64,000 nt of DNA. It comes from Liolophura sinensis (Eukaryota; Mollusca; Polyplacophora; Chitonida; Chitonidae). Positions 5,701-50,263 of this stretch are shown here, piece after piece. Made by a program: the position numbers and the translations under genes. Position 1 is the stretch's first letter. The number at the start of each line of letters is the position of its first letter. The stretch covers positions 19,823,608 to 19,887,607 of the forward strand of contig NC_088300.1 in NCBI RefSeq assembly GCF_032854445.1. The letters are read 5' to 3'. A model generated the notes under the pieces. The model did not search any database. It saw only the letters and a program-made list of their open reading frames with translations, and was not told the DNA's origin.

Positions 5701-6449
5701 TTATGTTGCATGTGCTCAGCATTTGCAGAAAAAACTACCTCTTGATAGCAAGCTTCTTCGGTCAATTTCTGCTATTGACCCATCAGCAAGAGGCCACAGT
5801 GAAACTGTTAAATGTCTCAAATATTTAGGTGAGAGCTTGAGACCTTTCCTTACAGATGAAGAACAATCTAGTGTGTCACTTGAAGCTCATAGATTCCAGG
5901 TACAATGTAGACTTGAGCCTAACAAGTCTAATTGACAGAAGTGTCCACGACGTTGATCAGTGGTGGGCAGCCTTGGACGAAGCGAATAAGTATCCAGCCC
6001 TTTGTAAACTTGCCAAAACAGCATTAACATGTTTCCATGGACCCATGGTGGAATCATCTTTCAACCTTATGGGTGACATAATTGATCCCCGGTCATCAAG
6101 AATGAATGTTAACACATTTAATGCATTCCAAACTGTAAAGTATGCACTTAAGGCCAGGAACACCACTGCCATCAAACTTTTTGCCAAGACAGATGTGAAA
6201 CACACCAAAGTGGACAAATCATTGTGTATCAACATGAGGGCAGCAGCCGAGGAACAGAAGAGGCTGTGGGAGGAACAGAAGACATTAAAACAGAACAGAC
6301 TAAAAAACATCAAATCTGCTGAAAAGGTGGTCCCTCCCAGTACAGTTGTTAGAAAAGGGATAAAGACTTTGGAGAAGGTTGCTCAGCAACAGAAGAGGAA
6401 AGCCATTGAAAGATTAACTGCATTACAAGCCAAAAAAAGGAAAAAGTAG
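2799..6449 (+). pseudogene. hAT-like transposase, two exons, broken by one frameshift
   Basis: Exon 1 (2799-3245, 149 codons) starts at an ATG that opens MAKTLTRDQES and contains a BED-like zinc-finger pattern: CTYC near codons 65-68, then paired histidines in NHAMKVSKH. A GTAAAC donor at 3246 and a TTTTCAG acceptor ending at 4414 join it in phase to exon 2. Exon 2 encodes the RNase H-like core: NIDEST (first acidic residue), a conserved LMDSCNVMRG block, then HHVHNACKKFC. The frame ends at 5935, and the continuing protein is found one frame over from about 5900: DQWW, then VESSFNLMGD (the hAT glutamate and dimerisation region) and a lysine-rich tail to the stop at 6447-6449. One extra base in 5890-5935 explains the break. 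Family membership is from motif recall, not a search. Confidence 0.75.
3651..3871. mobile_element. MITE-like inverted-repeat element nested in the hAT intron
   Basis: The ends GGGTATGTAAGTCTCG (3651-3666) and CGAGACTTACATGCCC (3856-3871) are inverted repeats with one mismatch over 16 bp. The 221-bp body has no coding potential. A clear target duplication is not visible beyond a possible TA, so the superfamily is uncertain. Confidence 0.6.
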
Positions 6450-10334: not shown

Positions 10335-10495
10335 TCATGGCTTGCTGGTGCCGTTGCTACTAGTGCTATTGCCAGTCCGTTCCCGAGACATATCTGTGGA
10401 CTGAGCACCCCTGCGTCTAACTCTCTTCATCTTCGCTATATCTTCCCCAAACACATCGCCTGTTCTCAGAGCTGAGATTAACTCATCAAATTCAC
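10335..10495 (-). other. DAAM: DAAM exon 26: DAD autoinhibitory tail and stop
   Basis: [16 protein letters not shown] followed by KMKRVRRRG fits the Diaphanous autoregulatory domain: an amphipathic helix then a basic cluster that docks on the N-terminal DID. A Ser/Thr/Gly-rich tail of about 20 residues follows, ending in SKP and TGA. Confidence 0.92.
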
Positions 10496-28400: not shown

Positions 28401-30415
28401 CACACTTCATACATGTTCAGTGTATACAGTTATGTTTTAATTAAGAAATAAAACACAGATTGTCTTGCTCAAACCACCAAGATAATGCACAGCAGACATG
28501 AGCTTGAGAACAAGGGGTCGCAGGCCTCTGGTGTTAAAAACACTCTAAACAACTGCTCTCCTCTTTTTGTTAATATGTAACGATTTAAGTTGTTTTGTTA
28601 TGATTTTGGACAAGTCCACGCCTGGACTCATTCCAGTGGCCAGACACGGACATTATCCCCTGTATTCCAACACCAGCGTGGCTCAGAACAGTGGCTGAAG
28701 TGGCGCGGAGACAGTGGTTTGTGTACCGCCAACTGAGTTCTGTACCGACTAAGCACTGCATCATGGGAGATCTCTGCCATCATCGAGCACAAGCTGTTCT
28801 CTCCCATCGCTTGCTTGTAATACCAGCAATCTGCTACTTTTGGAGGGGTTACAAGTAAGAGAACGTTGAAAAAACGCATCAATGTCCATGCTGCGCTTAT
28901 CCAGATACATTACCTAGATGCTTGTTGTCTGATGCCACCTCTTTATATCTCATACATGGGATAAGTGCCTATTGCCCACATGATGTTGGTAACAGTAAAT
29001 AATTCCCCTTTAAATCTAACTGCCTGACCAATTATACGTAAATCCATTTTGCCTTTGTCTTCGGAAAATAATAGCTGTCAAATCTTGAAGAAAACATGCA
29101 TTCTGACAGCACAACCCAGCCGTCCTATTTTATTAGAGAAATGGAACCGTCCCATCTCCCATGACAAGGACGGCAACTGTGTATAGATTGTCAATTTGAG
29201 CACACTTCGCCCACCATTGCTATTAGTGTTAAAGTTTTTGGAGGTATGCTAGAATTCAATATTGCATTCACATCTATAATGATCATAATAAGCATTTTAA
29301 AAGTTCACTATATTATATGTGCTCTGCACAATTTAAATACCATTTGTCTTTTCTCAGATCAAGGTAGCACCATTTAAAAGATGATATCATTCTGCATGCT
29401 AGTTTCATATTATTGTAAATGTATACTTAAAACTCCCGTATAATACTGCTGAATTCCCATGAAACCTGTAACTCTCATATTCCATGTGTCTTTAAAATAT
29501 TTAAACCATATAAATATGTATTGAGTCCCATATGCACATGTTCTGTCTGATGAGGTACATGCCACGCATGGTTTGTGCATTCTCATTAAACATGCTGGAA
29601 CTGCAGCTTGATAATGAATATTCAAGTAGTTTAATACTTCTCAATGTATGGCTAAATATTTACATGAACTGATGTATATGTATACAACGTATGTGCAGTA
29701 AGGGGTTTAGAATAGTGAAAATGAACCCATTCATGAAGTTGGTCTTTAAATTAGGTCATGCACTGACACACATTTTTTTTTGTTACATCAGGTTACAATA
29801 CTAATTAACTAGCACATCCTGCAAGTTAATACATTCAAAGTGCTTTACAGAAGTTAAGTGATTTAGGTTATAATCTTGAACAGGAAGAGACCAGCCATAA
29901 TAAGTTTAGTTCTCTTCCGTTCATGGGACAGTTCATTACAAAATTACCATCTTTATTAAATACCCTAAAAATAAACTGACAAGAAACACTCATACATGTA
30001 CATGTATGCAATCTCATGCATGGATCATATACATAGATTATACAAGCAGAACTCATGTATAAATGTTGTGCAACCTCCATGTACTTGTATGGACTAATGT
30101 ATTCAATTTGATGTGTTCAAAGTAAGGTGTTCCTTGTCCGCATGGGTATAAAAATTCATGTACATGTATCTGTAGGACATGGATTAACTGTTTTACTGTA
30201 AATAGTAAATAATAGCAAGGTTAATAGCTTGACAAACCAAAACTTGGAAGACTTACCACAAGTTCTGAGAATTTGGCATCCAGTTCTCCCTCGTTGGTGG
30301 GCATAGGCAGATCTACGGCCATGGGTTTGAGGGGCATGCCAATATCCACATCGTACGTGATCTCTGGCGGGCGACTGCCCCCGAAACACCAACACAAGCC
30401 TGGCTTACCTGGCAT
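10335..30415 (-). CDS. DAAM: DAAM formin (Dishevelled-associated activator of morphogenesis), complete, 26 coding exons
   Basis: Diaphanous-related formin that nucleates and elongates actin filaments downstream of Dishevelled and Rho in planar cell polarity (family knowledge). Exons in transcript order: 30415-30257, 25101-25012, 24831-24763, 23936-23848, 23577-23442, 23023-22826, 22396-22286, 21924-21821, 21621-21555, 20292-20175, 19894-19759, 19645-19519, 19309-19187, 18314-18071, 17589-17489, 16998-16954, 16718-16461, 15707-15601, 15354-15266, 14701-14487, 14196-14135, 13816-13756, 13247-13116, 12430-12260, 11187-11091, 10495-10335. They sum to 3270 nt, giving 1089 residues plus stop, close to the roughly 1070-1080 of vertebrate DAAMs. 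All phases join. Hallmarks seen: [11 protein letters not shown] near the N terminus, [59 protein letters not shown] and a C-terminal DAD. Whether it is closer to DAAM1 or DAAM2 is not decided; one invertebrate DAAM is expected. Confidence 0.95.
12531..12692 (-). repeat. tRNA-derived SINE, family A, head-truncated
   Basis: It begins with the TTTATTTATTTA tail and continues 'gttggtgttttatgccgtac', the GGGAGGAAACC module and 'aaacccacaaccatcca', matching the full copy at 62853-63096. The tRNA head is missing. Confidence 0.8.
13505..13573 (-). repeat. SINE family A fragment
   Basis: About 70 bp of the 3' module (ACTGGTGTTTTACGACG then CAAGAATATTTCACTTAT) lies in the intron between DAAM exons 22 and 23. 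Confidence 0.7.
15890..16460 (-). repeat. degenerate ~60-bp tandem repeat next to the DAAM exon 17 donor
   Basis: Read on the transcribed strand, the real donor CAG|GTGAGCTGATTA at 16460 is copied exactly 60 bp downstream (GTGAGCTGATTA starting at 16400). Further diverged CAG|GT motifs follow near 16330, 16153, 16052 and 15920, several inside GATCAGGT. The array is old and irregular, so its left limit is approximate. Confidence 0.55.
18071..18314 (-). other. DAAM: DAAM exon 14: FH1 proline-rich region
   Basis: The exon (codons 510-590) ends the coiled coil and then encodes three main polyproline tracts ([25 protein letters not shown]) followed by an APPAPAPPG stretch. FH1 recruits profilin-actin for filament elongation. 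The tract count looks lower than in vertebrate DAAM1, an impression from memory. The plus strand shows an open frame here that is only a shadow of the repeats. Confidence 0.9.
18414..18500. repeat. 29-bp tandem repeat, three copies
   Basis: Unit 'gtaccacccaggaaaatcac' plus nine bases, repeated three times with two or three substitutions, in the intron upstream of the DAAM FH1 exon. Confidence 0.85.
19187..19645 (-). other. DAAM: DAAM exons 12-13: coiled-coil linker
   Basis: Codons about 426-509 are rich in Glu, Lys and Gln with heptad-like leucines (for example [18 protein letters not shown] and [11 protein letters not shown]). They match the coiled coil between the DID and FH1 in DAAM proteins, which aids dimerisation. 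Confidence 0.8.
20415..21548. repeat. 55-bp minisatellite, about 20.6 copies, with higher-order structure
   Basis: The unit begins 'acaatgtctgcattcatgac' and is 55 bp long. Variant markers (gtgcaatg, gtagaatg, gtggagtg, tcgtgac, tactctct, tctcg) occur in the same order twice, so a block of nine units was itself duplicated with one unit gained. The array fills the intron between DAAM exons 9 and 10 and stops 2 bp from the GTAAGT donor of exon 9 (21549-21554). Confidence 0.95.
22201..22226. repeat. poly(A) tract
   Basis: An uninterrupted run of about 20 adenines within a DAAM intron. It lacks a neighbouring retroelement body that I can recognise. Confidence 0.7.
24190..24450 (-). repeat. tRNA-derived SINE, family A, near full length
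   Basis: From left to right it shows the AT-rich tail, the GGTGTTTTATGATGTAC module, GGTGGGAGGAAACC, 'aggagaggaagccagcatga', and a tRNA-like head containing 'gagctcacagcgaccgcatt'. Reading the minus strand gives the tRNA end first. Short frames here are repeat-derived. Confidence 0.85.
25376..25411 (+). repeat. G-run tract with quadruplex potential
   Basis: A run of about 13 G is followed by GGGG, GGG and GGGGGGG separated by 2-5 bases, satisfying the G3+N1-7 pattern on the plus strand. A second G-rich tract, GGTTGGGTGGGCGGGG (from 25748), lies on the other side of the SINE. Confidence 0.75.
25412..25747 (-). repeat. tRNA-derived SINE, family B, full length with TSD
   Basis: The minus strand starts with a tRNA-like head: GCCTGGATAGCACAGTTGG (A box), TCCGCTTCGGGACTGG, then GGATCAATCC (B box). 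It continues through the modules shared with the 1688-1975 copy. GGTTGGGTGGG and GGGGGGAGGA occur on both sides (25393-25411 and 25748-25774), consistent with a target duplication. Confidence 0.85.
26252..26513 (-). repeat. tRNA-derived SINE, family A, near full length, diverged
   Basis: It carries TTTATTTGAC, ATTGGTGTTTTACG, GGAGGAAACCAGGC, 'ggaagccaggacgagctgga' and a tRNA-like head ending 'ggccatggaggcacc'. Several indels separate it from the 62853-63096 copy. Confidence 0.8.
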
Positions 30416-30454
30416 CTTCTCCCACTTAGCTCAGTGACATCTCAGAGGGACAGG
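30416..30454 (-). other. DAAM 5' UTR segment with a five-codon upstream ORF
   Basis: A CTTTCAG acceptor (30455-30461 on this strand) precedes the start codon by 39 nt, so the first coding exon probably begins at 30454 and at least one noncoding exon lies upstream. Within the 39 nt sits ATGTCACTGAGCTAA (30426-30440), ending 10 nt before the DAAM ATG in another frame. Such a short uORF may damp translation. The DAAM ATG itself lies inside ATGCCAG|GTAAGC, a strong-looking cryptic donor. Confidence 0.55.
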
Positions 30455-31380
30455 CTGAAAGTACACAACACACATCATATACACGTATATACAGGATGGC
30501 TTTTTTCTCAAAACTGTAGGCCAACACTTGTACTGAAATGGTAACAGTAATTATATATGCTCATTGAAGCTTTTGTGCTTCATTCAAAAAAACATTCAAC
30601 AACAAACACATGACACAAATTTTAGACAAAGTCAACTATAAACAAAACTGTTCCCCACAAATAAAAGTACTGAATGCTTCGTGTGTAAAGTCTAACATAC
30701 ATGACAACATTGCTAATGAAAAGATGAAAACAAATTTTGACAATGTAACATATGTCTGTACACAGTGTATGAGAAGGTAGCTGAACAGCATGAGGATATG
30801 TGAATATGTAATAAGTACATGGGCGCTGAAAGATTAGCCATGTTAACACATGTAGATACATTTATAGAGCATGATGAATAACATGTACAATAGTGCACGA
30901 GTCTATTACAGATGGACATAGGCATGTGAAAAATGACTCTTACACAGTTTGGGGCTACCCCCAGCATCTGCAATGTATATACATGGGTATGATGGACTTC
31001 CTCATGATTCATTCTCATTACTTAAAATACATCTACATTAAAATCTGTAATAAAAAGGCTACTTAAATATGTGGATGAGTATGTATATGTTTACACACAA
31101 GGGGCTGCTAAGCCTACTGCTACATGTGCTGAATTATATACCAGCAATATATGTGCATGCTTATATTTTATGTATGTTTGGTGATAGGTTGCAATTTGTA
31201 ACACTGGATTGAAACTAAATCTGCAGATCTAGGCATATATATGTATAAATAACAAAAATGTGATGGATTTTAGATTTTAGCTGAAACCAAGGTATCTAAA
31301 CGTTTAGACGATTATTTTAAACCACTAATTGGACAATCATCACATACAGTGTAATCTACACAGGGCTGTGTTAATACATG

Positions 31381-31654
31381 TATGTGCACCATACCCCATA
31401 AATGTAAATGTATGTATACCATACCCCATACATGTACATGTATGTATACCATACCCCATACATGTAAATGTATGTATACCATACCCCATACATGTACATG
31501 TATGTATACCATACCCCATACATGTAAATGTATGTATACCATACCCCATACATGTACATGTATGTATACCATACCCCATACATGTAAATGTATGTATACC
31601 ATACCCCATACATGTAAATGTATGTATACCATACCCCATAAATGTAAATGTATA
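31381..31654. repeat. 30-bp minisatellite, nine copies, 60-bp dimer pattern
   Basis: The unit starts TATGTATACCATACCCCATA and ends in either CATGTAAATG or CATGTACATG. The two endings alternate in the first part of the array, giving a 60-bp higher-order unit. Because 30 is divisible by three, frames stay open on both strands; they are not genes. Confidence 0.95.
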
Positions 31655-34065
31655 TGTTAATCTAACCACACCATACACATGTATGTACAATGTTCTATAT
31701 ACATTCTGTATCATCCAAGAATATCTATGTCCAGGGGATGCTCTAGTTATATCACTAGTTCATAAGCTCATCAAACAGTAGAACTGATGTACAATGTACA
31801 CATACAGTATTGTAGGAATGCCTTATACATGTAACAATGATTTTCCCATGTATTGATATTTGGCACTCAACCAGGATAAATTAACACAATCAGAATCAAA
31901 TGTCAACTGTACAGGTAGCCCAGATTGGATGTGCAGGTCTAGCACAATTAATACCAACTGTGATATAGCCGCCCAATCTTATACTAGGGAGAGAGAAGGG
32001 AGAGGAAATCCATATAATATACAGTGTGGTGTACACACAGAATCAGATCTGGCTGATGAGATAACCAGCCTTCAGAAGTGGCATTCTCGCAGTACCTTGA
32101 GGCATGGAAGCTGTGTGAAGGAATACAACCAAGGGATACGTGTACATGCTGTCACAGTTCCAGAGTCAGCTCTAGCCACACCTGTAAGAGGTTACTATAC
32201 AAGATGTATAAAGTGTGCTTGCTGTATAGAGGTCACTATACAACATGTATAAAGTGTGCTAGCCAGACTTGCAAGTCTCTTGTAAAACACATATGGTCTC
32301 TTTCTAAATCTGATCAACTAAGACCACTTCAAATTTTGTATATGTACCCAATGTCCATTACATGTACCAATCAGGCCTACAAGCTCATACATGTACACAT
32401 GTGAAGACAAAGTTTATGCTGAGGTTTATACATATAAAAATTACAAAATCAAATCCAAATGTAACTACATGTATATTTGCAGGCACAGTATAACAAAATC
32501 CAACAATACCTGTGTTTTCAGTCCACCTCAGTTAATGCATCCACAAGTACAATGTACCAGTCCCTGATGAGAACTCACCTACCTAAGGAAGCTAAAATGT
32601 CCTTATATATTGCTTCATACACCGTAATCAGAGCCTGGCTGACACAGAGACATAGCCATAGGTTCATCCCCTCACACCTGTGTTAGACAGACTGGGCCAT
32701 CAACACACTCGCCTCTCTCTACACCTGTACAATACCTGTCATTCACAGCACACGTGCATTAACTTCCTTCTTTATGATAATATCCAGCCAGTGGTCCCAC
32801 TCGTACATCTTAATCTCCAGTCATTCAGAGCTTTGGTATACCGGTTTTCATGCATGGCTGCCTCCTGGCTCCATTCAGGTCATGGCATTACCACAACAAA
32901 TGAGAGCCACAGGACATCTGTTATGGGACAGTGTTCGTATTACAGAAGAGATTATCACAAAAGCCCCCCAGCATCATGCTCTGCTGGTTACACAACACTG
33001 CTAACATATGAAATGCAAAACCACTTAAGGTTTCCACCAAGCCAACACAGATTAACATCTGAAAGTGTAACAATATTTTTTTGGATGGATATGAGTAATA
33101 TTTTTACAAACAGTTTGTTTGGGAAGCTTATTCATATCAATAATATACATATAATGTAGACTACATAATAAGCATGTGAAAAACAATAGCATGTGCTCGT
33201 GTAAAGGTGAACTTAAAGCTAAAATGATAGGATAAAATGTCACACAATACATTTTTTTTGTTAAGCCGATTGTATGCTAACCACATTTTTTCCTGTCATT
33301 AAACTACATCTGGACAAAAACATGTAAAGTTTCTAAAAAGTCTCTAAAAAGACACTTTCAGACGGACATCAAGACCTTAAAAAGATACCACTGATGTTAT
33401 TTTCTAATACGAAATTAATCAAATTTCACAGTAAACTCTTAATAGATGAATTATGATAATCAAGCAAAATATGTCAAATGAAAAAAAACTCCAGGTGAAA
33501 AGCACTGAGTGAGGAAACCCACAGGTAAGAAAACATAAGGTAAGCAACAGTACAGTTCACATGTATAACAAAGTGAAAATTCTGGTTTCTGTGTGGCTTG
33601 TTATTCAAGATGTAATGTATAATAACATGTATGGGAGATAGAGGTGAGGGAAGAGGTGTAGAACAGACCAAGTACATGTATGTGTACAAAGCCTGCATAT
33701 TTCCACTGACCTTGGCACTCCTCTCACAACTGCTTCTCATCAACAAAACCCTGTCAACATTAATTTGTTAATATTTACAGTTTGCCAACTCAACTAATTC
33801 CTCTAAAAATTCAGATGCCAAAAAGCTTTCAGTATGAAGAGATTACATTCAAATGCCTAAAAAACAATACAGACAGGATATGGCATTCACTGACGTTAAT
33901 ACATTTCAGCTTACTACGGCCTTCTGAAAAGCTGTATGCATTTATATCTATACACTTCATACAATACATGTAATGTACACTTGTGTTTACAGGCATATTA
34001 TATTTGTTAATGTACACATGAATGATGCCCATGTAATCAGCACAAATACACATACACCACACCAT

Positions 34066-34165
34066 ACTACTCTGGACTTGAATTCACAGCAACCGCATTG
34101 GTGAGAGGCTTCTAGGTCATTGCTCTGTGCAGGAGGGTTAATCACTGGCCAGGGAGTCCACCTCC
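34066..34165 (-). repeat. SINE family A, tRNA-head fragment
   Basis: 'cacagcaaccgcattggtga' followed by GAGGCTTCTAGGTCATTGC matches the tRNA-related end of the family A copies; the body is absent. Confidence 0.65.
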
Positions 34166-35285
34166 CACCTCCCCCAACCACTAGCTGGTTGATAGTACAG
34201 CTTTTAACCCAAGCCAACAAACATCGCTCAAAGTTAATGTCACATTTCTCTCAGTTCCAAATACTTTTTTGGCAGCAAGAATTTTGAGTTGAAACACATT
34301 GCCTGACAGCATGTTAATTTATCAGCATTTATCAGGAAAGCTGAAAGGTTGATCATCACTGGTAAGTGTTGATGTTCTACTCTAGACTACACTGCAGTTA
34401 AACTGACTGTCAAATTGAATGATCAGTCTGATAGCTTTGCCCAGATGTCAATTCATGCACTCTAAAAAAAATATACAAACATTTTTCTGCACCTGAATAT
34501 AAATAATTTACTACAGAACTTTCACATGTAGTACATGTAGATGTAAATGCAGTACAGTAAACCTTAACATTATTGCCTGACCAGTGTCTGTTGAGAAGTC
34601 TAGCAGGATTCCAGTTCACCCAGCTGTGGCCCCAAGTCTACAGACTGATCCTCCAGGAGGCCATACTGAGCCCAGTGTAAACTGATGGACAGCTGACAGT
34701 CAGACTGGTCAAGCACAAGGGGATGTAAACCTCCAAAAAATCTCAACATTTCAAATCACTCCACAGTTTTACTTTCCTTGGTGTAAGAAGTCATACAATG
34801 TCATGAAACACTTCTATCAAAAGGGTAAATATCATATACTATTTAAATTTGATACTTTCATGACAAATTAGTGTGAATAGTAAATATGTAACTCCAGATA
34901 AATTAATTGGTTTTCTTGCTTCTTTTTTTTAAAGGCTTTCATGCTTTTAAAGTTCCTGGAGGTGTTTGAACATTTCTGCTGTGAGGAGTTAAGACAAGTT
35001 GATTGACAGGCCTGCTGACCTTACCTGACTGACCCTACTGAGGCACTGTCTCTCCGTACCCCCAAACCCCTACCACTCTTCTCCTAAAAAAAGGCCCTTA
35101 CTAAGGGCCTAACCTTTCACAAACAAGGCAAGTTGGCAAAGGAGTCAGAGTTCAACAATGACTGCCTTTACCTGATCACTACATGTATAATTGCTGATTG
35201 AAACACAGCCTACAAACAAGTACATAATTCATGCCCACACTGTTTTGACACTACACCGAGTTCAATTGGCTTCTACATCAGCATT

Positions 35286-35417
35286 AATTTATTTATTTAT
35301 CTGATTGGTGTTTTACACCATATTCAAGAAATATTTCACATGTATGAAGGCAGCACACATTATGGTGGGATGAAATCGAATCGAGCCCCGGGGAAACACG
35401 ACCATCAGCATGTTGCA
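35286..35417 (-). repeat. SINE family A, head-truncated
   Basis: TTTATTTATTTATCTGATTGG, then TGTTTTACACC, ATTATGGTGGGATGAAA and 'gccccggggaaacacgacca' match the body of family A. A run of about 24 A at 35621-35644 lies downstream. Confidence 0.75.
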
Positions 35418-36038
35418 TCTCAACACTGATAACTGGTACATCGGTACGTCATGTACACATCTTAACAGCCATCCCTGGCCTTACACATATACATGTACCT
35501 GTACAAGCAAAGGTGGGAATCATATACATCACAGGATTTTGGAAAAATTGTGCACACAGAGGAACAATTGTCAGTGTCAATACTTTATGATAATTTCAAC
35601 TTCTGTGATAATTTCTTGACAAAAAAAAAAAAAAAAAAAAAAAAATAATCATAATAAGTCTTCTAACCTATTGCTGCTTCAGTGGGCTTTGACAGGGTGA
35701 TTAGCAGGATGTTTGTTACACATACATCTACAGTGTGTTCTGATCACTGATCCCAACATCACAGCCTTACCTAATGTTAAAACCAGATATCAAACAGTAT
35801 AGCCCTATATTGTTATAACATCAACATGCACATAAAACCGACCTCTCACTCTAACGGTGAACATATCTGGCTGGTGATCTTCCTTATATCAGTGAAGAGG
35901 ATGTCACAATGTAGAAACCCGAGATGAGTAACGCTTTGTTCTAGGTTCTTTATTTCCTGATATATCAAAAGTCACGATGACACGTGTGCTGAAGACAAAT
36001 AGGGAAGTGGTGTGTTTCTCATTACCAAATCAGTCCAC

Positions 36039-36062
36039 ACACACACACACACACACACACAC
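36039..36062. repeat. (CA)n microsatellite
   Basis: About twelve uninterrupted CA dinucleotides. Confidence 0.9.
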
Positions 36063-36609
36063 GCCTGCTGGAATTTCCCACCCACATGACAAGATGAAGT
36101 GGAAACCAGCTTGACACATCGTCCTGAACAAAGATTTCTCATTTTTTCTAAATGACTTTACCATTTTGACGATTTTAATTAGTAGCCTATGCTGGGCTGT
36201 GCTCAGGTTACCAACAACCCTAAAGCTGACAAAGTCCCGTAACTTGTATCAGTACACTATAGTACAGGATAAGTAAAAATGGTCACACTACTACTCAGTT
36301 CACAAACCACACAAAGAACCCCAGCAAAGTCAAACACACCAAGTTTACAAGAAGTTTTGACATATATACTGCAGGGACTCATGGACAAATTAATGGGTTC
36401 CAGATTTGAACTAACGATTATCTTGTAATACGCTAGAGATTAATCCAAACAATAGAAAATAATGGTTATACAGGGCTGTCAAAAGGCTTGATTAACAGAG
36501 ACATACATGTACAGTCGTACCAGTGTATGTAGAGTACCATATATGGAAAATGGACTACAAGTCCTCATGGAGGAAGATATAGCTGAAACAACATGACAGT
36601 AAGTCAGCT

Positions 36610-36885
36610 TCATGCACAGTACGTACATGTGTGTGGCTGTCCTTGACATTAAGTACCATTACACATGTACAAGTGTGTGAGCTATCCTTGACAAATAAAT
36701 ACCATGATACATGTACATATGTGTGGCTGTCCTTGACATATAAGTACGATACATGTACATGTGTGTGAGCTATCCTTGACATATAAGTACCATGTACATG
36801 TGTGAGCTATCCTTGACATGTAAGTACCATGTACATGTGTGTGGCTGTCCTTGACATGTAAGTACCATGATACATGTACATATGC
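36610..36885. repeat. irregular minisatellite
   Basis: Tandem units built around TGTGTG(G/A)(C/G)CT(G/A)TCCTTGACAT, TAAGTACCAT and ATACATGTACAT, about seven copies with lengths varying from roughly 35 to 60 bp. Confidence 0.8.
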
Positions 36886-37964
36886 AAGTCAGTTCAAACT
36901 AAGTTATCCTTAGCTAATCTGGCAAGCTGTTTGATCAGGATCAAGATTTTGTGCACTCATTCTCCTTTATAGTGATTGTCATCAAACAATTAAGGCTGGG
37001 TGACCCGCTGAAAAAAATGTTATCAGAAAAGATATACATACATGGCACTACCATCTCACAAAATACTAATACTCAGGCACATTTTAATGTATGCAACTAC
37101 ATGAACCAAACAAAGAAACACTGAGGAAATCTCCTTAGTTACCCTCTTAAGACAAAATCAGTCTAGAAATAATCAATACACATGACCCACTGACCGCCTC
37201 ACAAACAGATCTACACCATCTCTCTGATCTGACAGAGACAAGCAAGATTTACATGCAGAGCAACAACAAAACCTTCAGGAATCAGTCATGCAGAATCAAT
37301 AAATTTAATTACAGGACAGATTTAATATTTCACTTTCTTCCACATCCTTGACTCTCTGGAGGTCACTGAACAAGTGAACATTAACCTGCTGTAATTGACT
37401 AAACCATTCATCTGCGGTGCCCCGGGAGTTAAATCATGGCTACAAGATAACCAAGCTTCAAATAAACTCAGCTAGCTTAATGTGGTAAGATGTTCTAGGT
37501 TGTACAGAGGCTCCAGCTTGATTTTCCACAAGTATGCACTCTGATATATCTATACACAAGGCTGTGTGTTCTGATATCAGGCATGACACACCTCCCTATA
37601 TAGGTGATAGAACTCTCAATAATTCAGAAGCCTTGTGAGTATTACTGCTGGGATGTGTCCATCACGTCAGAATAAACTACAGGAATTCTGCTGATGTCTG
37701 CAGTCTATACATAAATCTGTCGCTACCTCCACACTAGGCAGCGGTCATTGTCCGCAGCCACTGACCATTCCTCTGGTCATCTGGTCATGTATGGAAGACT
37801 GACATGCTATCTTGTCTGCACTGAAGAGCTATGATTGGTCAGTTACATGTGGTTATATCAGTCTAAGGATGGACAGATGTCGCTGTGCGATGCCTGACTC
37901 ACTGGAGTGCCCACTGCATAATGTATATAGTATACATACAGACTATACTAACTCTATAATAGTT

Positions 37965-38097
37965 GACTGATTGGTTGATTTTCATTTAACACCAAATCAG
38001 TACTCAAAATTTTGAAGCATTTACATCGATAGAGGAAACCAAAGGTTTGCACAGGATAACCCAGCAACCTTTAAAAAGTTACCTACCAACTTTCCCA
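37965..38097 (-). repeat. diverged SINE-like fragment related to 39125-39285
   Basis: ATTTAACACCAAATCAGTACTCAA, 'agaggaaacca' and 'caactttcccacat' parallel the module order of family A and of the 39125 copy, with many substitutions. Confidence 0.45.
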
Positions 38098-39124
38098 CAT
38101 AAAAATTCCCACACCACACAAGGGAAAACAAGGGATCTTTAACAAATGCAAGACAACACGTACTTACACAACTACATGTAACTATGAGCAGTGACAGAGG
38201 GAATTCTATCAATTCCCTGTCCACGGCCATGATACGCTGTTTTCTATATTTAAATACCCACAACTGTTTCACACCAAAATCCAATTTTGCTGTTAACAGG
38301 ATAATGGAGAAGTGAATTCAGTGCAATAAAAATACACCAACACCTGAGAATACAAACATAGATGCCATGCTACGTTCGCTTTTTATCTTCTTTTCTATAC
38401 ACACATATATCCAGCTATTGGGAACTTCAAAACCAATGAATTTTTATCCCATCGACTGCCCCTCAATACAATATACAGTTCCACTCTACAGCCTTTATAG
38501 ATTTCATAGTCCAGGCATGTCGCATTAGTGATTACTGTACCTGTTCATGATTGTTTCCGATTTCCAGGTTGACGGTGGAACTCATTCATGTCTACATTCA
38601 TTTTAATCATGCAATAATCGTTGAAGTAAAATGCAACTCTGACTAGTCACATTTTACACAAGATTTAGAAAAAAGTAACCTGTGTAAAATGTGGTTTTGA
38701 CCCATTACAATTAAGTCCAGTCTCACCTCAAAATTCCCCCACCAGGTCATGGGCGATCTCATTATGGAATGTATGCGTGTGGGGGGGGGGCGACGGATAA
38801 GGTGTTTGTCTTCTGTAGGACAAATGTGCAAACCATGTTACAGTTCTGCACAGTTACAACTGTTCATACATGTAACAGTCAACACCGGCAAACCTCTGTC
38901 AACATCCCTACATGAGCAAATCCACAGCTGGCAACAACTTGACAAAAATCCACAAATTGATGTGAGTGGACAGAGCATTGTCATGTGGCTGTGTGATCAT
39001 GTTTGTTTTGTCTGGTCAATGGCTTGAATGACTTGTGGTCAACAGCTGTCTCCACAGCATGACCATACCTGAAGACAACTTCCGCCACAGGTCTGCACCT
39101 TAACTAACTGCATTATCATCTTCA

Positions 39125-39285
39125 ATTTATTTTTTTTATTTCATTGTTACTTAATGCCATACTCAAGGATTTTTCTCTTATGTGACAGCAGGTAGTTTAT
39201 GGGTAGGGGAGGCTGGTTTGCCCAGGGAAAACCACTGAACTCTGGCTGGTCATTGACAAACTTTCCCACATAGAGATAATATGCA
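39125..39285 (-). repeat. SINE-like repeat related to family A
   Basis: The order TTTATTTCATTG, 'acttaatgccatactcaagg', CCCAGGGAAAACCAC and 'acaaactttcccacat' follows family A but is a separate, diverged lineage. Confidence 0.55.
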
Positions 39286-42200
39286 AACTGACCAGTGGAA
39301 GTTGTCTTCAACAAACGACAGACTGGTCAAATGACCTCTGTGAGTTGTCGAATGCTTGCTGTTAAGTTCCCAAAACCTATAAGAGAGGGATCTTCAAATT
39401 CTGTCAGGAGGACAGGTTTGAATCCACAATGTGTTCGTTGCCATCAGCATTATCTGAAAAAGACCTTAATGTACATGAACCTGCAAAATGAGCACAGGTG
39501 ATCACTTTTACAGCCAACACTGGAGTTAGCTGGCTTATTGATTAGTTGACCTAAAAGATCAATCGCACAGGAACCTATAATGATGTCCTCACCCTCGGGT
39601 AATGTCTACATAAATCCTTACCTTGGTCAGATGGTCAAGCTATGCCAGCTGCCATTACTGTGTCCAGGCACACAAAGTATAACATGTTTCCCCAGATGTA
39701 CCAGTGCAATAGTTTTGACACCACAATTAAGTACTATAACTAATGTATTTAATTACCTTAACTTTCAGCAGAAAGGCACTTAACCGTGATACAAATTGCA
39801 CACAAGAAAGGAGAAAAAAAAAAACACTGACGTCACACTAACAGAGCTTCGTCCCTCAAAATCGGGGGTATAATATATACAAAAACAGGTATATGTGTAG
39901 CTGTACATGAACTGGAGATACAAGCACATTTCAAAATCATAGGCCAAAAACTAAAATGACCTGAATTTTTTTTTACAAGTCCCTCTCTGTTGAGCACTGC
40001 AACAGTGTCAATCAACAAAATACATGTACTGAAAAAAGAAAACCCTATATTAAATGTGCACCTGTACATGTAGAACAGGACCTGAACCTGTTTATGTAGC
40101 TTTATTACAGCAGGATGTCCAGAGCAGCATGAAGACACGTGAAATCCAGGAATTGTAAGTTCCTTTTGTCAAGTGGGTATACAACAGGCTATCAGGTTCA
40201 TACATGTAAGTGTACAGTGCATATAAATCTCTTAATTATATCACACTATATACAACAGCACTTCAGGCCCCTGGGTTTTATTTCCATTTTTTTGTCAGTA
40301 CTGGAGCAAAAAACAAATTCATCAACTTCTAGAGCCATGATTGTCAATTACCCTACAAAAACAACTTCATGGACAGAGTGAATTTACATGTAACACATTA
40401 TGCTTTCTTTTTACGATGTTCAGATTGTGAAACCACTTTTTCAATGATTAAAATTCACTACACAACCAAGATTTTTTGTTTCTGTAAATTTTCAGTCTCA
40501 CCCAATTAAATAGATCGACATTCCTGCAGTTTTTTTTTAACTATGAACATATAAAATTAACCAAACATAGGAAATACAAACCAGATTGGCAATTTCATAT
40601 TCATCGTATAATGATGTGAGCAAAACTTTTTGCCCTCATTCCGTCCACTAAGCTGCGTCATATTGTGAAATCCTCATCACAGCTACATTGTATGCGTTAC
40701 ACATTAGACGTATATACAGTTCAATGTTTACTATTCCGACATTTAATATTATATGATAGTCTTTTCTCAAGATAAAATATGAAGATACATGTACCTTTCT
40801 GAATGCTGTATCAAGTACCTGAAATGTACACCAGGGAGTTGACATTACCTGTATGGGCCAACAGGCAGAGTGAAGAGACATTCACACTGTAAATTTCTGA
40901 AATCTACCACTTGACATGCTTGCACACAAAAAGACAGGATCCCAAGGTTCAGCTGACTGTCAATGGACACACAGCGCAAGTGTGTCAGCTATTGTCAGGT
41001 AAGCAAACACCACTGAGCACTGAATAACAACCATCTTCAGCCTTACAGAATCAGGCCCAATTACTTCCTAATAAATGCCCAATAAAACATCTTTCCAGAA
41101 TGAATGCATTTTCTCAAAACCCAATTTTACCCATGAGCAATATTACTGTTTTGTTAGCAACTTTTTGTAGATGCATACGGACAGTGAAAGTAAGAAACTG
41201 TAGCCTATACACATGTACATTTGTACCTGTTCATGATTAACTTGCATGAAAGAGCCACTGCATGTACAACTCGACCTTGTTTTTTTTTTTATAAAATTTC
41301 TAATAATATATGAAGAAATACACTGAATATAGTGGTTCATGACATATTTATATCTGTACATGCTATAATGTAATATACATGAGTTACATGTACAATGTAC
41401 ATAATTTGTTTTAAGAACGTCTCTCATTTAATTCATTCTGCAGTTTGTGCAGTAGCCAAGCACCTTTTACAACCATGTACACACTGTGAATGACAAGAAA
41501 AAAGTGTCTTGTTAATTAATATCAAAATTCCATCTTTACTGTCTCCTTAGTACCAAATTGCTAACAGATTTTAGTGGCACAGTAACTAAGAGGTTTTCAC
41601 CGCACACTCAGCTCTACACAGCTAGAGACATGCACAAATACATTGTACGTGTGCATGTAATTGTCAGGACACATTATGACATTTAGACACTGGAGAGAAA
41701 AGGTTGGAATCTACCTGAAAGTAGCTCTAGATTACCATGGTTAGGGAGGATCAGAACAGCCTGCTTACATACCTCAAGTATCTGGCATTACAGCATCAAT
41801 GACACTGTAAATACGCTAAAAATCTACCCACAACACCAGTCTGGCTTACAAGCATATTATATGCAGCTCTACTTGAATTTGCTGCATTTCGTTAAGAAAA
41901 ACAATTCATCTGTGACTCTTCAACAGATTACATGACTCGCAGAATGTGGGATTCTAAAATTCTGACATCATATCACTGTAACATTCTGACAGATTCTGGC
42001 GATATTTATGCCAAACACAACAGATGTTGAGAAATGTACACTGACAGTTGGCAGACCCAGCAGGCAGCAGCCTGTGCATTCCTGGACTAGGGGTGTTACA
42101 TAACCTCCCTTCCCCTACTAATGAACTGGGAGAGCCCTGGCTATTACTCCATGGGCTCTCAACAATATTAGTACTGGCAGGCAGACTGGTATTTCTGTAG

Positions 42201-45200
42201 GAACAACACTCGACTGGCTGCCTCATCAGTAACTCATTCACACCATGCTACTGATATAGGCATGTATGCCTCACAAAACACATGTCAGATTCACAAGGAA
42301 ATGCTTTAGACGAGGCAGAAGTGCAACATCAGAGTTTCAGTAAAATTTTATTTATACAGTGCATGTACTGTACCATTGTTTTCTGGTTCATGGGAAACAT
42401 ACATCCCATGTTAAATACTGAAAATGCATGGACAAAACAGGCTTTTGAAACTTGAACTTGGCCAAAAAATGAATCTGAAACCTTGATCAAAACTGGAAAC
42501 CAGTAACCAATAACTCATCAGAATAAAAGAAATATACACCTGCACAGTAACAATTATCAAAATCCAGCAGTATTTGGTGCAGTTCAGTCAGGGGAACAAA
42601 AGTATAAATCAATATCCCTTGCTTTCACAAATGCTTCAAATAAACTCTTGATCTGAAAGAAAGGAGACAAACTACAGCACATGTAGTGTAAATTTTACTA
42701 AACTGAATCACTGCTGCGGAATTCAAGATAATACATTGAGTACATGTACAGCCAGTAATTTCTTTACCAGCACATTCTTACTTCAACATTTGGTGTGATC
42801 AAGGTTAACTTAGTAGGAATGGTACACAACACATTATAGTATGTGTCACAACTTCTTGCTTTAGTGTTAATCCAGGAAAATCTACATATTTAGGACACAT
42901 GTGTGTTTTCTATGCGTATGCAAGAACTTTGTTCTTTTGTCAGACAGCACAGAAATGACATGTAAATGATGGATTAATGAAGGCTCTTTCCAAATAAAGA
43001 AGAAATCCATTTATGTAGTGTGATGACACGAGTTGGAAATAAGAGACAAATAAAAAAACAAAACCGCAGCAACAAGGAAAAGCACATTTACAAAAAACAC
43101 TCTGACATTATCACTGAAATTAGCCATCCAATTACAGACTTGCTGCATTTCAGATTACCAACAAGAGCGCTAATATAAGATAAAACACTTCACATTAAAA
43201 CAATTTACCGGAAGAAGATTCAATTCAACAGCAGGCCCATGATATTTAGCCCTAGGTTATAAAACAATCAGAGCATTTAACTAATGACATTACAAGATGT
43301 CAGCCTGGTTGAGATGATATTACAACATCTACACCATATGTGTTCATGAACATGTAACTTTACCAACAGAAAAAAGTGTGTGTTGTTTTTCAATGATGTT
43401 GAACTGCTGTGTTAAATCACTTAGAACAAGAAATTAAACAAGTTCTATGAGCAATACATGTTAGAAATGAACATGTATAGTAAATGTATAGTAAACTACA
43501 ATATCTGGGCATGCACTACTACATTTACATGTCTAGCATTACATAAATTACTCAGTAATTTAAGTGATGCAGTACACCCTGGTACATGTACCTGACTGTA
43601 AAAAGTGGCAGTATTCTCATCTCATACAACAATCAGAAAAAAACTTATTTACATGCATCATGCATACATGTATATAACACACTGTGTTCATTGTAAACAC
43701 AAGCCTTATACTTTAGGAGGGCAATTAACTGTTCCAGTTCAACAAAATGAAATGCTTTGGTCAATACTGACATTATGTACGTGTAAGTTGTGTCGTGAAA
43801 AAGTGAAATAAGGTAAAGGATTCCTCATATTTGTATGTACGACATTGATGACTTTTTCGAACATTACTTATAGCAGTATACATTATAGAACAAACAAAGC
43901 AAAGACTTTCTGATAATAAAGATACAAACACAACCCTACAGTTTGAAAATCTTACCTTATGAAACATGAGGGTCAAGCAGTCATGCATATCACTCACACA
44001 TTATCTGAAATGACCTTAGAAGCTGTGAACAAAATCATCCCAGACATTCACGGGAGAAAGGTATGCTGGTCACTTGGATTAAAGTCAAGCCAGAGAATCA
44101 TGCCCCCATAAGATGATGTGTACTGCCTCAGGCACATCTCAAACACTCACAATAACTGCCTTTAATTTGTTGAGTCCTGACATCAATTTGTAAGTCACAT
44201 TCACACAAGACAGCAGTGTTTGATATAATTATTAACAGACAACTCCCACCATTTTTACCTATCACTTATGGACTTGACAAAGGCTTCTTTAATCCTAAAT
44301 GTTAATCCAATATTCACTTCATTAAGATGTTTATCTGATGCACATAACAGTGACTTCCATGTAATTAACAGCAGCGATCATTCAACTTGAGTTCCTGTAG
44401 GTACATGAATGCGTGCTCAGGTGTATGGAGAGCTTTACGAGCACCTTACCAAATAACAAGTATACATGTACATTTCCGTGAGGTAGGGCAGATTCTTCAA
44501 TTAGTATGCATACAATCAGCAGGTGGCCTCATGTAAATATCTCCTGTCGCACACTCAAATCGATAAAAAAGTAAATGCAAGAAAGTAAAACAAATTCAGA
44601 TTTCCAGTGTGAGAAGAACAATACAGTCATCAAACATATACAGTACATGAGGGACCTGTCATAATTAAGTGTCAGAATCATTAACAGATGAAATCACAGA
44701 TCAAATCAATCATTACTCAGCCTTATTCTTTCCAGGTGAGGAAATAAACTTAGGACTTACATGTACATTTAATGAAAACTTCCTGTCTCATATAACGTGC
44801 ATGTGGCTTGATGTAAAGTACAGTATAAAATACATATAAATTAGCACTGCACAAATTTGTAGATCTATGCATATAAAACATAGACTAAGTACTGCTCATT
44901 CTTCGAAGATTTTTTACACCAAATCACTCTTGTTTTCAACAATGACATCTGATTTATTACTTTTTTGCCTTGAATAAACACATCTGCACCACATTTAATG
45001 TCTTACATAGACCTGTTCATATGTTCAAGCTTCAGGAAACACTAAATCAAGAAAACAAAACTGCCGTGCCAGGTGAAGTGTGAACATAACGAGGTCACAA
45101 CAAGGAAATTACTCATGCCAGGGCTGATTTGATCAAAGTCTGCATTGGCTAATAGCAATCTGCAGCATAAGCTGCTTTAGCTGGAGCTGTTAGTCATACT

Positions 45201-46555
45201 CCACCACTAAATCAGTGGTCATTGGCCTGCCTGGGAGTGGTCAGTCCATCCCTATCAAACTCAAGGTCAGCAATATGATTAAGGCTATTTTTCCACATGA
45301 TACCTGACAGATAAGGCAAGTACAAAATACCATTACATACTATAGTGCCAAACAGCTACATACCTGTAATCAGTAGCTACAAAGGGATGACAACAACAAA
45401 ACACATCTGTCATAAGACCCTTAGCTTATCACCAGGTAAATGTACACACACACACAGGTATAAATGTGATGACCAGCATTCTCAGGACTAAGAGTCATGG
45501 TTAAGTCTGGTCTGTAGGCCTACAACTAGATACCAACCAGTTAAACTACTGAAAGTTAGTGCAAAAAGTGTATGTTAAAATTCAGCGTGTAAACATGTAA
45601 ACATTGTCAAACTTACACATTTACTATGGTGTTCATTGTGAATCCTTGTACATAGAACGCAAAGCAGTGAAGTATTAAAACGTCTGCATGTACTAAGTTG
45701 ACTTCAAACAATTTAACAGTGTCAAACCTTTTGACTTGAGTTCCGTGGGAACCAGGTCAATATTACATGAATGCGTGACATAATAACTACTGTAAATAGG
45801 ATGGGTAATGATAGACCTATACATCCTGCTGAACATACACAAACTCTGTCTGTACACAACTGAAGTAAACTAATTGTCATAACAAAATAGTTAACCACTT
45901 CACTTCTGGAATGCTGTAAGAGTGGAAAAGATTGCATTGGCATATCATACACATTTCATACAAAAAAAAAAAAAAATTACCGAAAGTCTAATATAGATAT
46001 ACAAACTTCAGGGAAAGTACTATACCATTCATCTGAGATGAAGAATGCGTAATTAACATGTAATATACCAGAGGTTAACAGTCAATAACGGTTTTAAATG
46101 AATTTTAGTAAAAAAATGTAGCTTAATTTTTATGGTAGTTATACACAGGTTGATCGGTCGATTCTTTTCTCACTGACCTAACGCTGGATGTATATTAAGC
46201 CAGAGGTAAAACAATCAGAAAGTACTTGTGTTGACAAGGACAGGAATGATTTCATTATGTTAAATAAACTGTTGCATCCAAAAATCTGATTTAACATCAT
46301 CAGAAAAAGCAATTTAATCATTGAAAATGAGATAATATTTGACACCATACATTATCACGAGGGACTTTTAAACTGACACATATTTTGTGGCGGTACTGCA
46401 CGGTTTAGGAAGCCTACGGTAATCAAGATCATTGATATAGCAAGCGTTAGGTTACAATTTTCAATCAGTTTGAACTTTGAAAATCAGAAACAGTCATGAG
46501 TGGCAAGGTATAAAACTGTGACACAGAAATATAAGTATCTGGCATACACTCCATC

Positions 46556-47065
46556 GCTTACGCTGAGGTCGCGTGCGTGGAGGGGTACATCCAGCCTCAT
46601 CACACGGCGTTTACACACGCCTTCTACCTGAAAGCTTATGGACGATAAATCCTAAGGAATCTGCTCAATAAAGACGTGAGTGCCTGGCCGCAAGCTATTC
46701 AGGTATGTACATTTTATCACACAGTCAGAAAGAATAACAAAAGGCGTCTTACCGGTTTTGCAATCCTTTTTCACTGCCCACGGCCGCAGATGACATATAT
46801 CGTCTGTATCATCATAATTTCGTCCGCATGTCAATTTTGCTCAGCTACGATCTTTCCCGAGTGTGACCGGAAGTCAGGCGAATACTGCCGAACCTTTGGG
46901 AAGGATTTCAACCAATGGACGCCTGAATTGTTCGGAACTGCAGTGCTTGACATTTTTGACATGATGGCGGAGAAAGGTGTAAACAAATGATATGTTGTGA
47001 TATGTTTAGAGGATAATTTCGATGTTACAAAGAACCTTGGGAAAATCCAAGACAATTTGTGAAAT
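46556..47065 (+). promoter_or_regulatory. CpG-containing promoter/5' UTR region of KIF6
   Basis: CpG dinucleotides are common here in contrast to the flanks. Motifs close to the gene are ACCGGAAGT (ETS type, 46866-46874), CCAATGG (CCAAT box, 46912-46918) and ATGGCGG (YY1-type, 46964-46970). Such clusters mark broad, TATA-less animal promoters. A TGA stop is in frame two codons before the KIF6 ATG. On the minus strand a donor-like CAGC|GTAAGC near 46562 could end a DAAM noncoding first exon, which would make the region bidirectional; that part is speculative. Confidence 0.5.
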
Positions 47066-50000
47066 ATGGTGAAGAGCACAATCCAAATATTCGCTCGTGT
47101 CAAACCTACACGTGCAAAGACCGGCGTAAGTAACTGTTTTGTGACAGCTAAGTTGACATTCGCACACATTCGTCCACATTGACAATCTTGCTGGTGATAG
47201 AGCCAGCATCTATACCTGACAGTATCCATCAGAGTAATGTGTTGAGCTGTGACATTTTGAGATTTCAAAACATGTCATTCTGTTAACTTTAAACTAGGGT
47301 TTCAGAGACCATTAGCTATACCGTCTGAATACGAATTCGACCATCTTCAGACCATTCGAAACCTAGTGACAGGCCCAAACTGTTGTCATTTATAACATTT
47401 TGTTATTTTTGTCATTTATCAAAGTGATATGCAGAAGAAATGTTTAGGAATAAACATTCATAGAAATAAAAATGTGTCGTAGAAAGATGTAGGCCTATAT
47501 TGTACTAGTCTGATTAAACTGACTGTAGTGGGTTCAGAAATATTAGATACACAGTAGGGCATATGAGAGATACAAGTTCTCTGGAGTTTTCTGCCTGGGG
47601 GCGCTTGCACATATACCACATATTTGGATTAGATTACATGTTTGACCCTATGCCTATGTGTATTACAGTGCATCCTGTTTTTAACCCGACACACGGTAAC
47701 CTTACATTGTGACGTGTGCTAGTTAATGCTTAGTTAGTCCGTCTAGATGGACTCAGTGTGCTAGTTTAAAACTCTGACATTCATTGTAACAGACTGTAGT
47801 CCATCGTCGTCTCTCAAACAAATCACTGCACATCTGCGACCTCCAACTCAATGGGACTGATTTCAATGAGGTCACTGATGGAGCCCAAATTTACCTGCTC
47901 TAAAAATAGTTCTTTTTTATGCCTTTTTGGATTGAATTAAGAATGTTGAAGTTGTTCTTGCAAATGGCAGTCGAAATATACCTGTTTTTTTGCTGATTTT
48001 AATGCCAAGACTCAGTTGCATTTCAAACCGAGAAGTAGGTCATGTGACACTTAAAAGTGGCTGGAGATGGAGAGACACCTAGTAGTGCTGAAGCTCTAGC
48101 AGTGAATTTGACCACCACGCAGTGAGTTAATTAGTTTCATAGGTGAGGATAGTAAATTCAGGGATTCCACCATAAAGTTACGTATAAATGAGCTGAGGAG
48201 GTGAGATAGATTGTCATAAGTGAGAAGGAGATGGGAGTTTGAAATCTGTGGCATGTTTGTTGACAGGTGGACTTAGTGTTATGATGAATGTCAAAATTTT
48301 AAGTTTCTAGATGATCTAATGCTTGGTGTGATCTAAATAAACTACTGACATGTCTGAATATCACCTCGAAATGAAAAGAAGAGAAAACAATTAAGTCATG
48401 AGCACAAATGGAGTGTAGATTTTTTTAAAACTGAGAGCATGCTCCATTCGCCCAACACTCATGTACGTGAAAACCGTGTACTTAGTCAGAGAACCCGCCA
48501 CACACAAGTTTGTAATAATATTCCATTTAAGTATCATTTCTTGGTTTTGGTCCGGCATGTCATTACCCAGTTGAATATAGGTGAGGTGTTGAGTGTTCGG
48601 CCAAGCTGAGAGGTAAGAGCCACAATTGACACCTGTTTTAGACTTTAGACATCGCTTAGAAAGGACTTAGGCTGGGCCGCTGGGGTGAAACATTTTATAA
48701 TTTACCGCGGGTTACCACTGTGACTATAAAACTCCACCAGCCCAGTGCAAAGAGAGGAGCTAAAATAGCCACTTGGGGTTGCTGGACTCCATAGTACATG
48801 TACTATAAATAACAGAATTCCAAAGCGAATTCCACTGCAAAAATAATTCCAGTAACTTAACAAATCACTAAGAGAAAAGAAAAACTATAGAAATCTGCTT
48901 ATGGGCACATTTCCAAAATGACCCAATACCACTTAATATCCATAATTTGAGTGATCAAGAAAAGCAGAGTTAAACTAATGAGGCCTTGAAGGAGAACCCA
49001 AACGACTTTATTTTCACACTAAATTTTCCCCTGACACAATTTTTATACTATGTTAGTCTGTAAATTGCATTTAAAAATATCTTAGGTGAACTAGTTCCAT
49101 TTAAACTACCATTGAATTATGGTAGTATCTGTGGAGGAGAATTTGGCACGGTTTCGTAGTCCACTATAAATTTTTATAGCCAAATCAAGTGATACTGGCT
49201 GCGAAACGAGGAACCATGGGGTCCGGCCAGCGAATTGTGAGTTGCAGTGACGACGACTGTCTGTGAAAGTAACAATGGAGCTAATGTTTTATGTCTCAAA
49301 AAAGTATCACCTGCAAAAGAAGATAAAGGTTGAATTCTATTGAAGGGAAACTGCTATTATTAACACATAGGAATGCTAATTTAAATTTTGTCTAGATTCA
49401 CATTACGGGCATCAAAGTATGGCACACACAGTGACTTGTGGGTGAGGTGTGAACTGAGCCTCATGGCCATTGTAGGGCAAAGGCTAGTGGCTCCCCACAG
49501 TTTGTGTCTTAGTAGGATGTTTCAAACATGCAAGTAGCTACTCAACTTTTACAGTCTTGGAGCGAAAATTTGGACGTCTTCTTTTTTGTTTGTTTTTTGG
49601 GAGGATATTTACAAGGCTCGTCCTTTGGCCTTTTCTTTCAGAAGGTATAGCTCATGCGACTAGGATCGAGTTCCCCGTAAATCAAAGTGCATTTTTAATG
49701 AGATCTGGTCCATATTTTTCAATCTGTGGCATTTTTAGTTCATGTATTTAACTTTACAGTATCCTGCCTTGTGTTATTGGAGTCGCAAGTCACACTTGGA
49801 ATGGAATAATCTTAAAATTGGCTGTAAATGTATAGCGCTTGTCTCCTGTTCTCCGTGTTGTACAGTTAGCGAAGACTCAGATGCGTGCAGCAAATGTACT
49901 GCTGTGACGTCGTAAGGTCAATGGTGGCTCGATCATAATGGAGTAGATTTTCTGATGGATGATCACCAAATTCGGCCATTTTTCTTCCGTTTTCAGTGTT

Positions 50001-50231
50001 TTAACTTATTGGAATTGATTTAGGTGGTATCAAACCATCAGTTTAGAAGACGCAGCACTGAGATCTACTTTAAAATAAATTTATTTTGACCAAATAACCT
50101 TGTTTCTGACATTAAATATCCATTGCTGGAGGACCCTAGCCTAGAGACAAGGTAAATATAATTAAGGTAGGCTAAGGCCATATATGTAATTGTAAGCTTC
50201 TCAAGTCTATCAGTGTTATTCGTGACATCAC

Positions 50232-50263
<32 letters not shown>

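Follow-up and report, generated by a model that had tools for sequence, protein, structure and literature searches.

The genes for DAAM (disheveled-associated activator of morphogenesis), a planar-polarity formin, and KIF6, a ciliary kinesin, are head-to-head neighbours in the chiton Liolophura sinensis. They lie in a stretch of 64,000 nucleotides (hereafter the window; C6:19823608-19887607 of an assembly of 609 Mb in 632 contigs), with DAAM on the minus strand, KIF6 on the plus strand and 16.65 kb from ATG to ATG. C6 is an 82.5-Mb contig, or 13.5% of the assembly. We consider it somewhat more probable than the alternatives taken together (roughly 0.56) that they are an old divergent pair sharing one bidirectional promoter region, in which case the 16 kb ahead of the DAAM ATG would be an intron within the 5'-untranslated region (5'-UTR) of DAAM. 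The initial annotation had recognised the two genes on these strands, with start codons about 16.6 kb apart and no recognised gene between them, and all of this holds: spliced alignment, Pfam and matches to solved structures agree on both identities and coordinates, and the ATGs are at 30415 (DAAM) and 47066 (KIF6). Its treatment of the 16.6 kb as a spacer between two separate starts is probably wrong, given the CpG depletion and strand skew of the interval and a splice acceptor ahead of the DAAM ATG. The features of the locus, in window positions, are:

10335..30415, minus strand: DAAM coding region, stop codon included (spliced alignment, Pfam, PDB)
30416..30454, minus strand: the 39 bases of 5'-UTR at the head of the DAAM ATG exon, with a strong acceptor just upstream
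30455..46000, minus strand: putative first (5'-UTR) intron of DAAM, previously taken as intergenic (G+T excess, CpG depletion)
46001..47500, no strand: CpG-rich patch, a candidate region for the starts of both DAAM and KIF6 (CpG observed/expected ratio up to 1.05, change-point at 46742)
46753, minus strand: candidate donor CCG/GTAAGA (8.7 bits) that would close a noncoding first exon of DAAM
47066..64000 and on to ~66999 beyond the window, plus strand: KIF6 coding region (spliced alignment, Pfam, structure matches)

Composition of the interval between the start codons

In the oyster, methylation climbs sharply past the transcription start site and remains high through gene bodies, according to the part of the source available (PMC4378273), and by analogy with such known methylation low CpG content would mark methylated gene bodies in molluscs. 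The CpG observed/expected ratio (o/e) of the putative DAAM intron (30455..46000) is 0.24, and the median of one-kb bins is 0.21 in the interval (15 bins), 0.34 in the DAAM body (20) and 0.42 in the KIF6 body (19). Two stretches taken as spacer, which are assumed rather than shown to be gene-free, have medians of 0.76 (68-81 kb, 13 bins) and 0.82 (far left, 23 bins), and the interval lies below both (p = 9.8e-6 and 7.1e-7, respectively). None of the 150 windows of 500 bp in the interval has a ratio of at least 0.7, whereas 68 of the 125 windows at 68-81 kb do; eight random 10-kb loci span 0.41-0.90.

Strand skew points in the same direction as the gene-body-like CpG content. An excess of G+T on the sense strand is present in all nine gene stretches of known strand (0.019-0.088), a control set that includes DAAM and KIF6 and in which exons were left unmasked, and the interval read in DAAM sense has an excess of 0.090. 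With exons and repeats masked (10.3-61.9 kb, 43,104 bases), the single best G+T change-point is at 46742 (3-lnL range, 46003-47472), with a log-likelihood ratio of 69.8 versus at most 27.9 across 500 block shuffles; the end of the scan at 61.9 kb was chosen to exclude the strongly G-skewed 62-64 kb, which would favour the same switch. Placing the split at the DAAM ATG exon instead yields a log-likelihood ratio of only 7.0, and the skew alters little at 30.4 kb.

The splice acceptor TGTGTTGTGTACTTTCAG ends at 30455 (AG 30456-30455), leaving 39 exon bases ahead of the DAAM ATG. Its score of 11.1 is the highest among the 51 AGs within 1 kb, and only 3 of the 936 minus-strand AGs in 30416-47065, itself included, reach it, under a model trained on 43 acceptors of which this was not one. 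Because so strong an acceptor precedes the ATG by 39 bases, the ATG exon is probably not the first exon of DAAM, and together with CpG depletion and skew the acceptor suggests that most of the 16.6 kb is transcribed with DAAM.

The interval is also poor in dispersed repeat, which makes up 1.4% of it, whereas the part with DAAM has 8.0%, that with KIF6 6.8% and the stretch at 1-10.3 kb 3.1% (all from a small library of ~206 kb). This is how functional noncoding DNA might look, and cis-regulatory constraint is an accepted cause of conserved pairs in the part of the literature source available (PMC5429095), so that a promoter for each gene, at a distance of 16.6 kb from the other, and enhancers in true intergenic DNA that keep the genes paired would account for both points. 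We consider this arrangement unlikely, however, as the DAAM ATG has no CpG-rich patch (o/e 0.20-0.54 in 500-bp bins, 28-31 kb) and does have the strong acceptor just upstream, and as gene-body-like CpG and skew extend across the interval with hardly a change of skew at its DAAM end. More improbable still would be a distinct minus-strand noncoding transcript that runs from ~46.7 kb across the interval, with DAAM itself starting near 30.5 kb. Skew and CpG depletion point to minus-strand transcription and are silent on which gene is transcribed, and in both respects the interval and the DAAM body differ to some extent, yet an acceptor that adjoins the DAAM ATG, with no CpG-rich start there, favours one continuous unit.

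Searches for other genes in the interval were negative within their scope: none of the 10 open reading frames (ORFs) given to Pfam, a selection from those present, had a match over the cut-off, a few having weak sub-threshold matches, and neither Rfam at the gathering threshold nor ARAGORN returned anything. Two minisatellites lie in the putative DAAM intron, at 31378-31653 (period 30, 9.2 copies) and at 36623-36884 (period about 45/88).

A candidate common start region

In bidirectional promoters the two transcription starts are separated by less than about 1 kb, and the region that holds them is typically CpG-rich. Five runs with a CpG o/e of at least 0.7 occur in 8-67 kb, the longest and richest being the patch at 46001-47500, which holds both the skew change-point and the KIF6 ATG. 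Because the change-point and the largest CpG-rich patch coincide upstream of KIF6, the two starts probably lie near each other at 46-47 kb. What is found is a pair of divergent coding regions with a CpG-rich patch that spans the KIF6 ATG and in which the DAAM start would also lie. The spacing of the starts is putative and skew-based, from the change-point range of 46003-47472 and the KIF6 ATG at 47066. The candidate donor at 46753 is the best among the 140 minus-strand GTs in 45.5-47.4 kb.

According to the mechanism that we propose, the CpG-rich region at 46.0-47.1 kb would launch both transcripts, KIF6 rightward and DAAM leftward, and splicing would join a noncoding first exon of DAAM to the ATG exon some 16 kb away. 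Any rearrangement with a breakpoint between the starts would then harm one of the genes by cutting the common promoter, which would be the reason that they are held together, and enhancers inside the long DAAM intron would perhaps add to the bond. KIF6 too may have an upstream noncoding exon, ending at 46702, and the 5' ends of DAAM and KIF6 might overlap.

Several words known from promoters occur at the candidate start region. Single ETS (46867), CCAAT (46910) and YY1-like (46964) words are present in 45.9-47.2 kb, and there are a TATAAAA at 46509, an E-box at 47109 and one loose X-box match, all counted without a chance control, so that no conclusion is drawn from them; RFX half-sites were not found in 45.9-47.2 kb.

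Two other loci serve as comparisons. In the KIF9-like gene described below, a CpG-rich patch (up to 1.13) precedes the first coding exon that is clearly recognisable. To the left of the window, at 16-21 kb from it (L008, L009), lies a second divergent pair, a TEX30-like hydrolase (minus strand) and a legumain-like (LGMN-like) peptidase (plus strand), with a CpG-rich patch between the genes at -18.2 to -15.6 kb, where the skew turns from negative to mostly positive. This pair thus resembles DAAM-KIF6 in its divergent orientation, its patch and its change of skew sign, and differs in that the recognised coding sequences are only about 2.8 kb apart, so that no long 5' intron is needed.

Observations that weigh against a shared start region

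A number of observations count against a common start at 46-47 kb and a DAAM intron across the interval. With respect to CpG, the interval is poorer than the DAAM body itself (p = 0.004), and CpG-rich runs are not confined to starts: four further runs occur in 8-67 kb, one of them inside DAAM at 25.1-25.9 kb, and they are also found within control loci, of which L023 has two, L025 has one and the KIF9-like gene has a second in addition to its upstream patch, with none in L022 and L024. With respect to skew, the interval exceeds the DAAM body, the lowest of the nine controls (a 3-kb DISP3-like piece) is only about one standard error from zero, and the GC skew of that piece, taken alone, has the wrong sign. 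In an unmasked scan of 1,610 positions over 170 kb, the contrast at 46.9 kb is 0.146, above the 90th percentile of absolute contrast (0.121) but below the 95th (0.162). The scan contains two larger divergent switches, both beside tandem arrays. Of 16 random 5-kb pieces, one exceeds a G+T skew of 0.09 in absolute value (0.117), and these loci may themselves be genes. Finally, the donor at 46753 is ordinary, in that the interval has 18 minus-strand sites of at least 8, and a stronger donor on the plus strand, CAG/GTATGT at 46702 (11.1), lies inside the CpG-rich patch.

Identity of the two genes

The guides for spliced alignment in the window were the human DAAM1 and KIF6 sequences. The DAAM model has 26 exons on the minus strand, from 30385 to 10377, in a single frame and with no internal stop; the ATG is at 30415-30413 and the frame is closed by a stop at 10337-10335. 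Drf_GBD, Drf_FH3 and FH2 follow each other in this order, all over the Pfam cut-off, and FH1 is matched only below it. DAAM formins also have a C-terminal autoregulatory (DAD) motif, and the model includes the C-terminal exon. Among solved structures, the protein is nearer to DAAM1, of which two chains head the matches at 549.5 and 502.3 bits, than to other formins, the nearest of which is DIAPH1 at 218.8. In a search of the assembly with 291 residues from the N-terminal half of DAAM, in which weak matches can escape, all seven matches fell at the window locus, which suggests a single DAAM locus. A tRNA-like match at 25671-25742 (minus strand; Rfam, 30.2 bits with a cut-off of 29) in a DAAM intron belongs to a stretch that recurs at other loci and is probably a tRNA-derived short interspersed element.

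KIF6 is incomplete in the window, and recognisable C-terminal sequence continues for ~3 kb past its edge, to ~66999. The N-terminal kinesin motor and the kinesin-9 tail domain are over the Pfam cut-off (PF00225, PF16796, PF23735). The C-terminal part of the model is unclean, with one predicted exon that contains an in-frame stop and several very short exons, which may be artefacts. A model of the kinesin-9 tail gave three matches in the assembly, at two places, namely two exons in the window and one at C4:24.88 Mb, and the second kinesin-9 locus extends over C4:24.86-24.88 Mb. The solved KIF9 (9ijj) matches the window kinesin with 306-328 bits versus 517 for the motor part of the C4 protein, and the window protein itself has its best solved match in 7n61 (333-345 bits), which is named no more precisely than 'kinesin-like protein'. 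Identity to human KIF6 is 59.7% for the window protein and 32.9% for the model at C4, for which the window protein served as guide. Judged by these matches, the window kinesin is KIF6 and not KIF9, and the C4 locus is the KIF9 paralogue.

Linkage in other animals and age of the pair

We take human DAAM2 and KIF6 to be divergent neighbours with starts about 67 kb apart, and hence tens of kb apart where the starts in the chiton would be close; the other neighbours differ as well. Of the vertebrate DAAM2-KIF6 neighbourhood put forward in the initial annotation, the linkage is borne out by gene lists for cattle and chicken, while the human orientation is background knowledge. For cattle chromosome 23, 12.67-13.94 Mb, the excerpt available lists 'KCNK16, KIF6, DAAM2, MOCS1', with the two genes in succession, although list order is no proof of map order (PMC12075139); for chicken chromosome 3, 28.9-30.0 Mb, an excerpt gives both KIF6 and DAAM2 within one 1.1-Mb region, in an alphabetical list that speaks for linkage only (PMC8469556).

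If both genes are placed on the 82.5-Mb contig, the chance of a divergent start within 16.65 kb is p ~1e-4, or 4e-4 when four human neighbours are considered, figures that presume the human arrangement and take no account of the number of windows read. Because chance placement is this rare, the pair is likely to have been inherited from the common ancestor of molluscs and vertebrates, the basis being one mollusc and the vertebrate lists. That the comparison covers only one mollusc and vertebrates leaves some room for DAAM and KIF6 having been joined independently in the two lineages, but the figures of about 1e-4 to 4e-4 apply even if both genes stay on one chromosome, and we regard such a coincidence as very improbable. 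Why the genes are linked is a separate question from which promoter model applies, and our estimates for the one do not compete with those for the other.

Three of the five genes of the 6p21 region that were tested with family models are also on C6, namely MOCS1, SAYSD1 and NFYA, at distances from the pair of about 4 Mb, about 18.6 Mb and about 59-61 Mb, respectively, whereas GLO1 is on C1 and BYSL on C3. NFYA and BYSL are presumed here to lie near human 6p21. The remaining three, MOCS1, SAYSD1 and GLO1, appear in the excerpted cattle gene lists (PMC12075139). A larger retained block around the pair finds no support among these five genes. NFYA domain exons occur at two places on C6, 78.995 Mb and 81.259 Mb, perhaps owing to a duplication.

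To the right of KIF6, the next recognised gene encodes a Patched/Dispatched-like protein (minus strand) in one long open frame at 87763-90804 (L003:7763 into L004). For the flanking genes Pfam supplies families only, and the names TEX30, LGMN and DISP3 are our assumption. None of these recognised neighbours (LGMN-like, TEX30-like, DISP3-like) appears in the excerpted cattle list around KIF6-DAAM2. Because the neighbours differ and the three C6 genes lie megabases off, the surroundings seem to have been reshuffled and the pair left intact.

The presence of MOCS1, SAYSD1 and NFYA (3/5) on a contig that holds 13.5% of the assembly would also be expected if the pair had simply remained intact, with no regulatory bond, on a chromosome whose content is conserved, and low recombination is named as an alternative to function in the part of PMC8851819 available. 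Such passive retention is a serious possibility, if in our estimate short of probable: the three genes are far away and the recognised neighbours have changed, yet the pair was kept, and one pair cannot decide the matter.

It is conceivable, though doubtful, that one bidirectional promoter was already present in the ancestor of molluscs and vertebrates, molluscs having kept the common start and vertebrate starts having drifted apart with linkage and orientation preserved. Were this true, what first tied a planar-polarity formin to a ciliary kinesin may have been a promoter and not an enhancer acting at long range; a functional link between the two proteins, such as the shared tissue suggested in the initial annotation, is speculation.

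Relation to known gene pairs

A catalogue of conserved ancestral microsyntenic pairs was reportedly compiled by Irimia et al. in 2012. The chiton pair is like these in that two unrelated neighbours appear to be retained between distant animals, and unlike them in that a common promoter is proposed here and enhancers in a bystander gene there. With bidirectional promoters such as that of ICK-FBX9 (PMC2876993, as far as the available part describes it) it shares the head-to-head divergent genes, but in the chiton the promoter is deduced from sequence alone, and a 5'-UTR intron of 16 kb would separate the DAAM start from the ATG.

No mention of DAAM-KIF6 as a conserved pair was found in the titles and starts of abstracts listed, and no paper searched combines DAAM2 and KIF6 with synteny or microsynteny; the main catalogue of such pairs was outside this search, so the pair may have been reported. 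By title, the papers that name both KIF6 and DAAM2 or DAAM1 are genome-scan, population, clinical, mouse-model and single-cell studies, and KIF6 and DAAM have 0 occurrences in the main text of PMC5429095, PMC12407938 and PMC8851819.

Why some gene pairs are retained for >500 million years is debated, the rival answers being a promoter used by both genes, enhancers located in a neighbour and inertia. If the start region of DAAM and KIF6 is common to both, the pair offers a concrete and testable case in which transcription ties a planar-polarity gene to a ciliary motor. Long 5'-UTR introns can moreover be exposed by strand skew and CpG depletion, introns that a reading based on coding sequence only would call intergenic.

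Other features

Outside the window, at window coordinates -23927 to -21618 (L009) and 98358-100358 (L004-L005), lie two long tandem arrays that contain open frames and are strongly skewed; no family was assigned to either. Remains of a hAT-type transposase are present in the window at 4400-6449 (plus strand) as two ORFs in different frames, one at 4400-5935 with a DUF4371 match below the Pfam cut-off and one at 5841-6449 with a hAT dimerisation match over it. Elsewhere in the assembly, C8 carries eight haemocyanin units in consecutive order, a molluscan arrangement.

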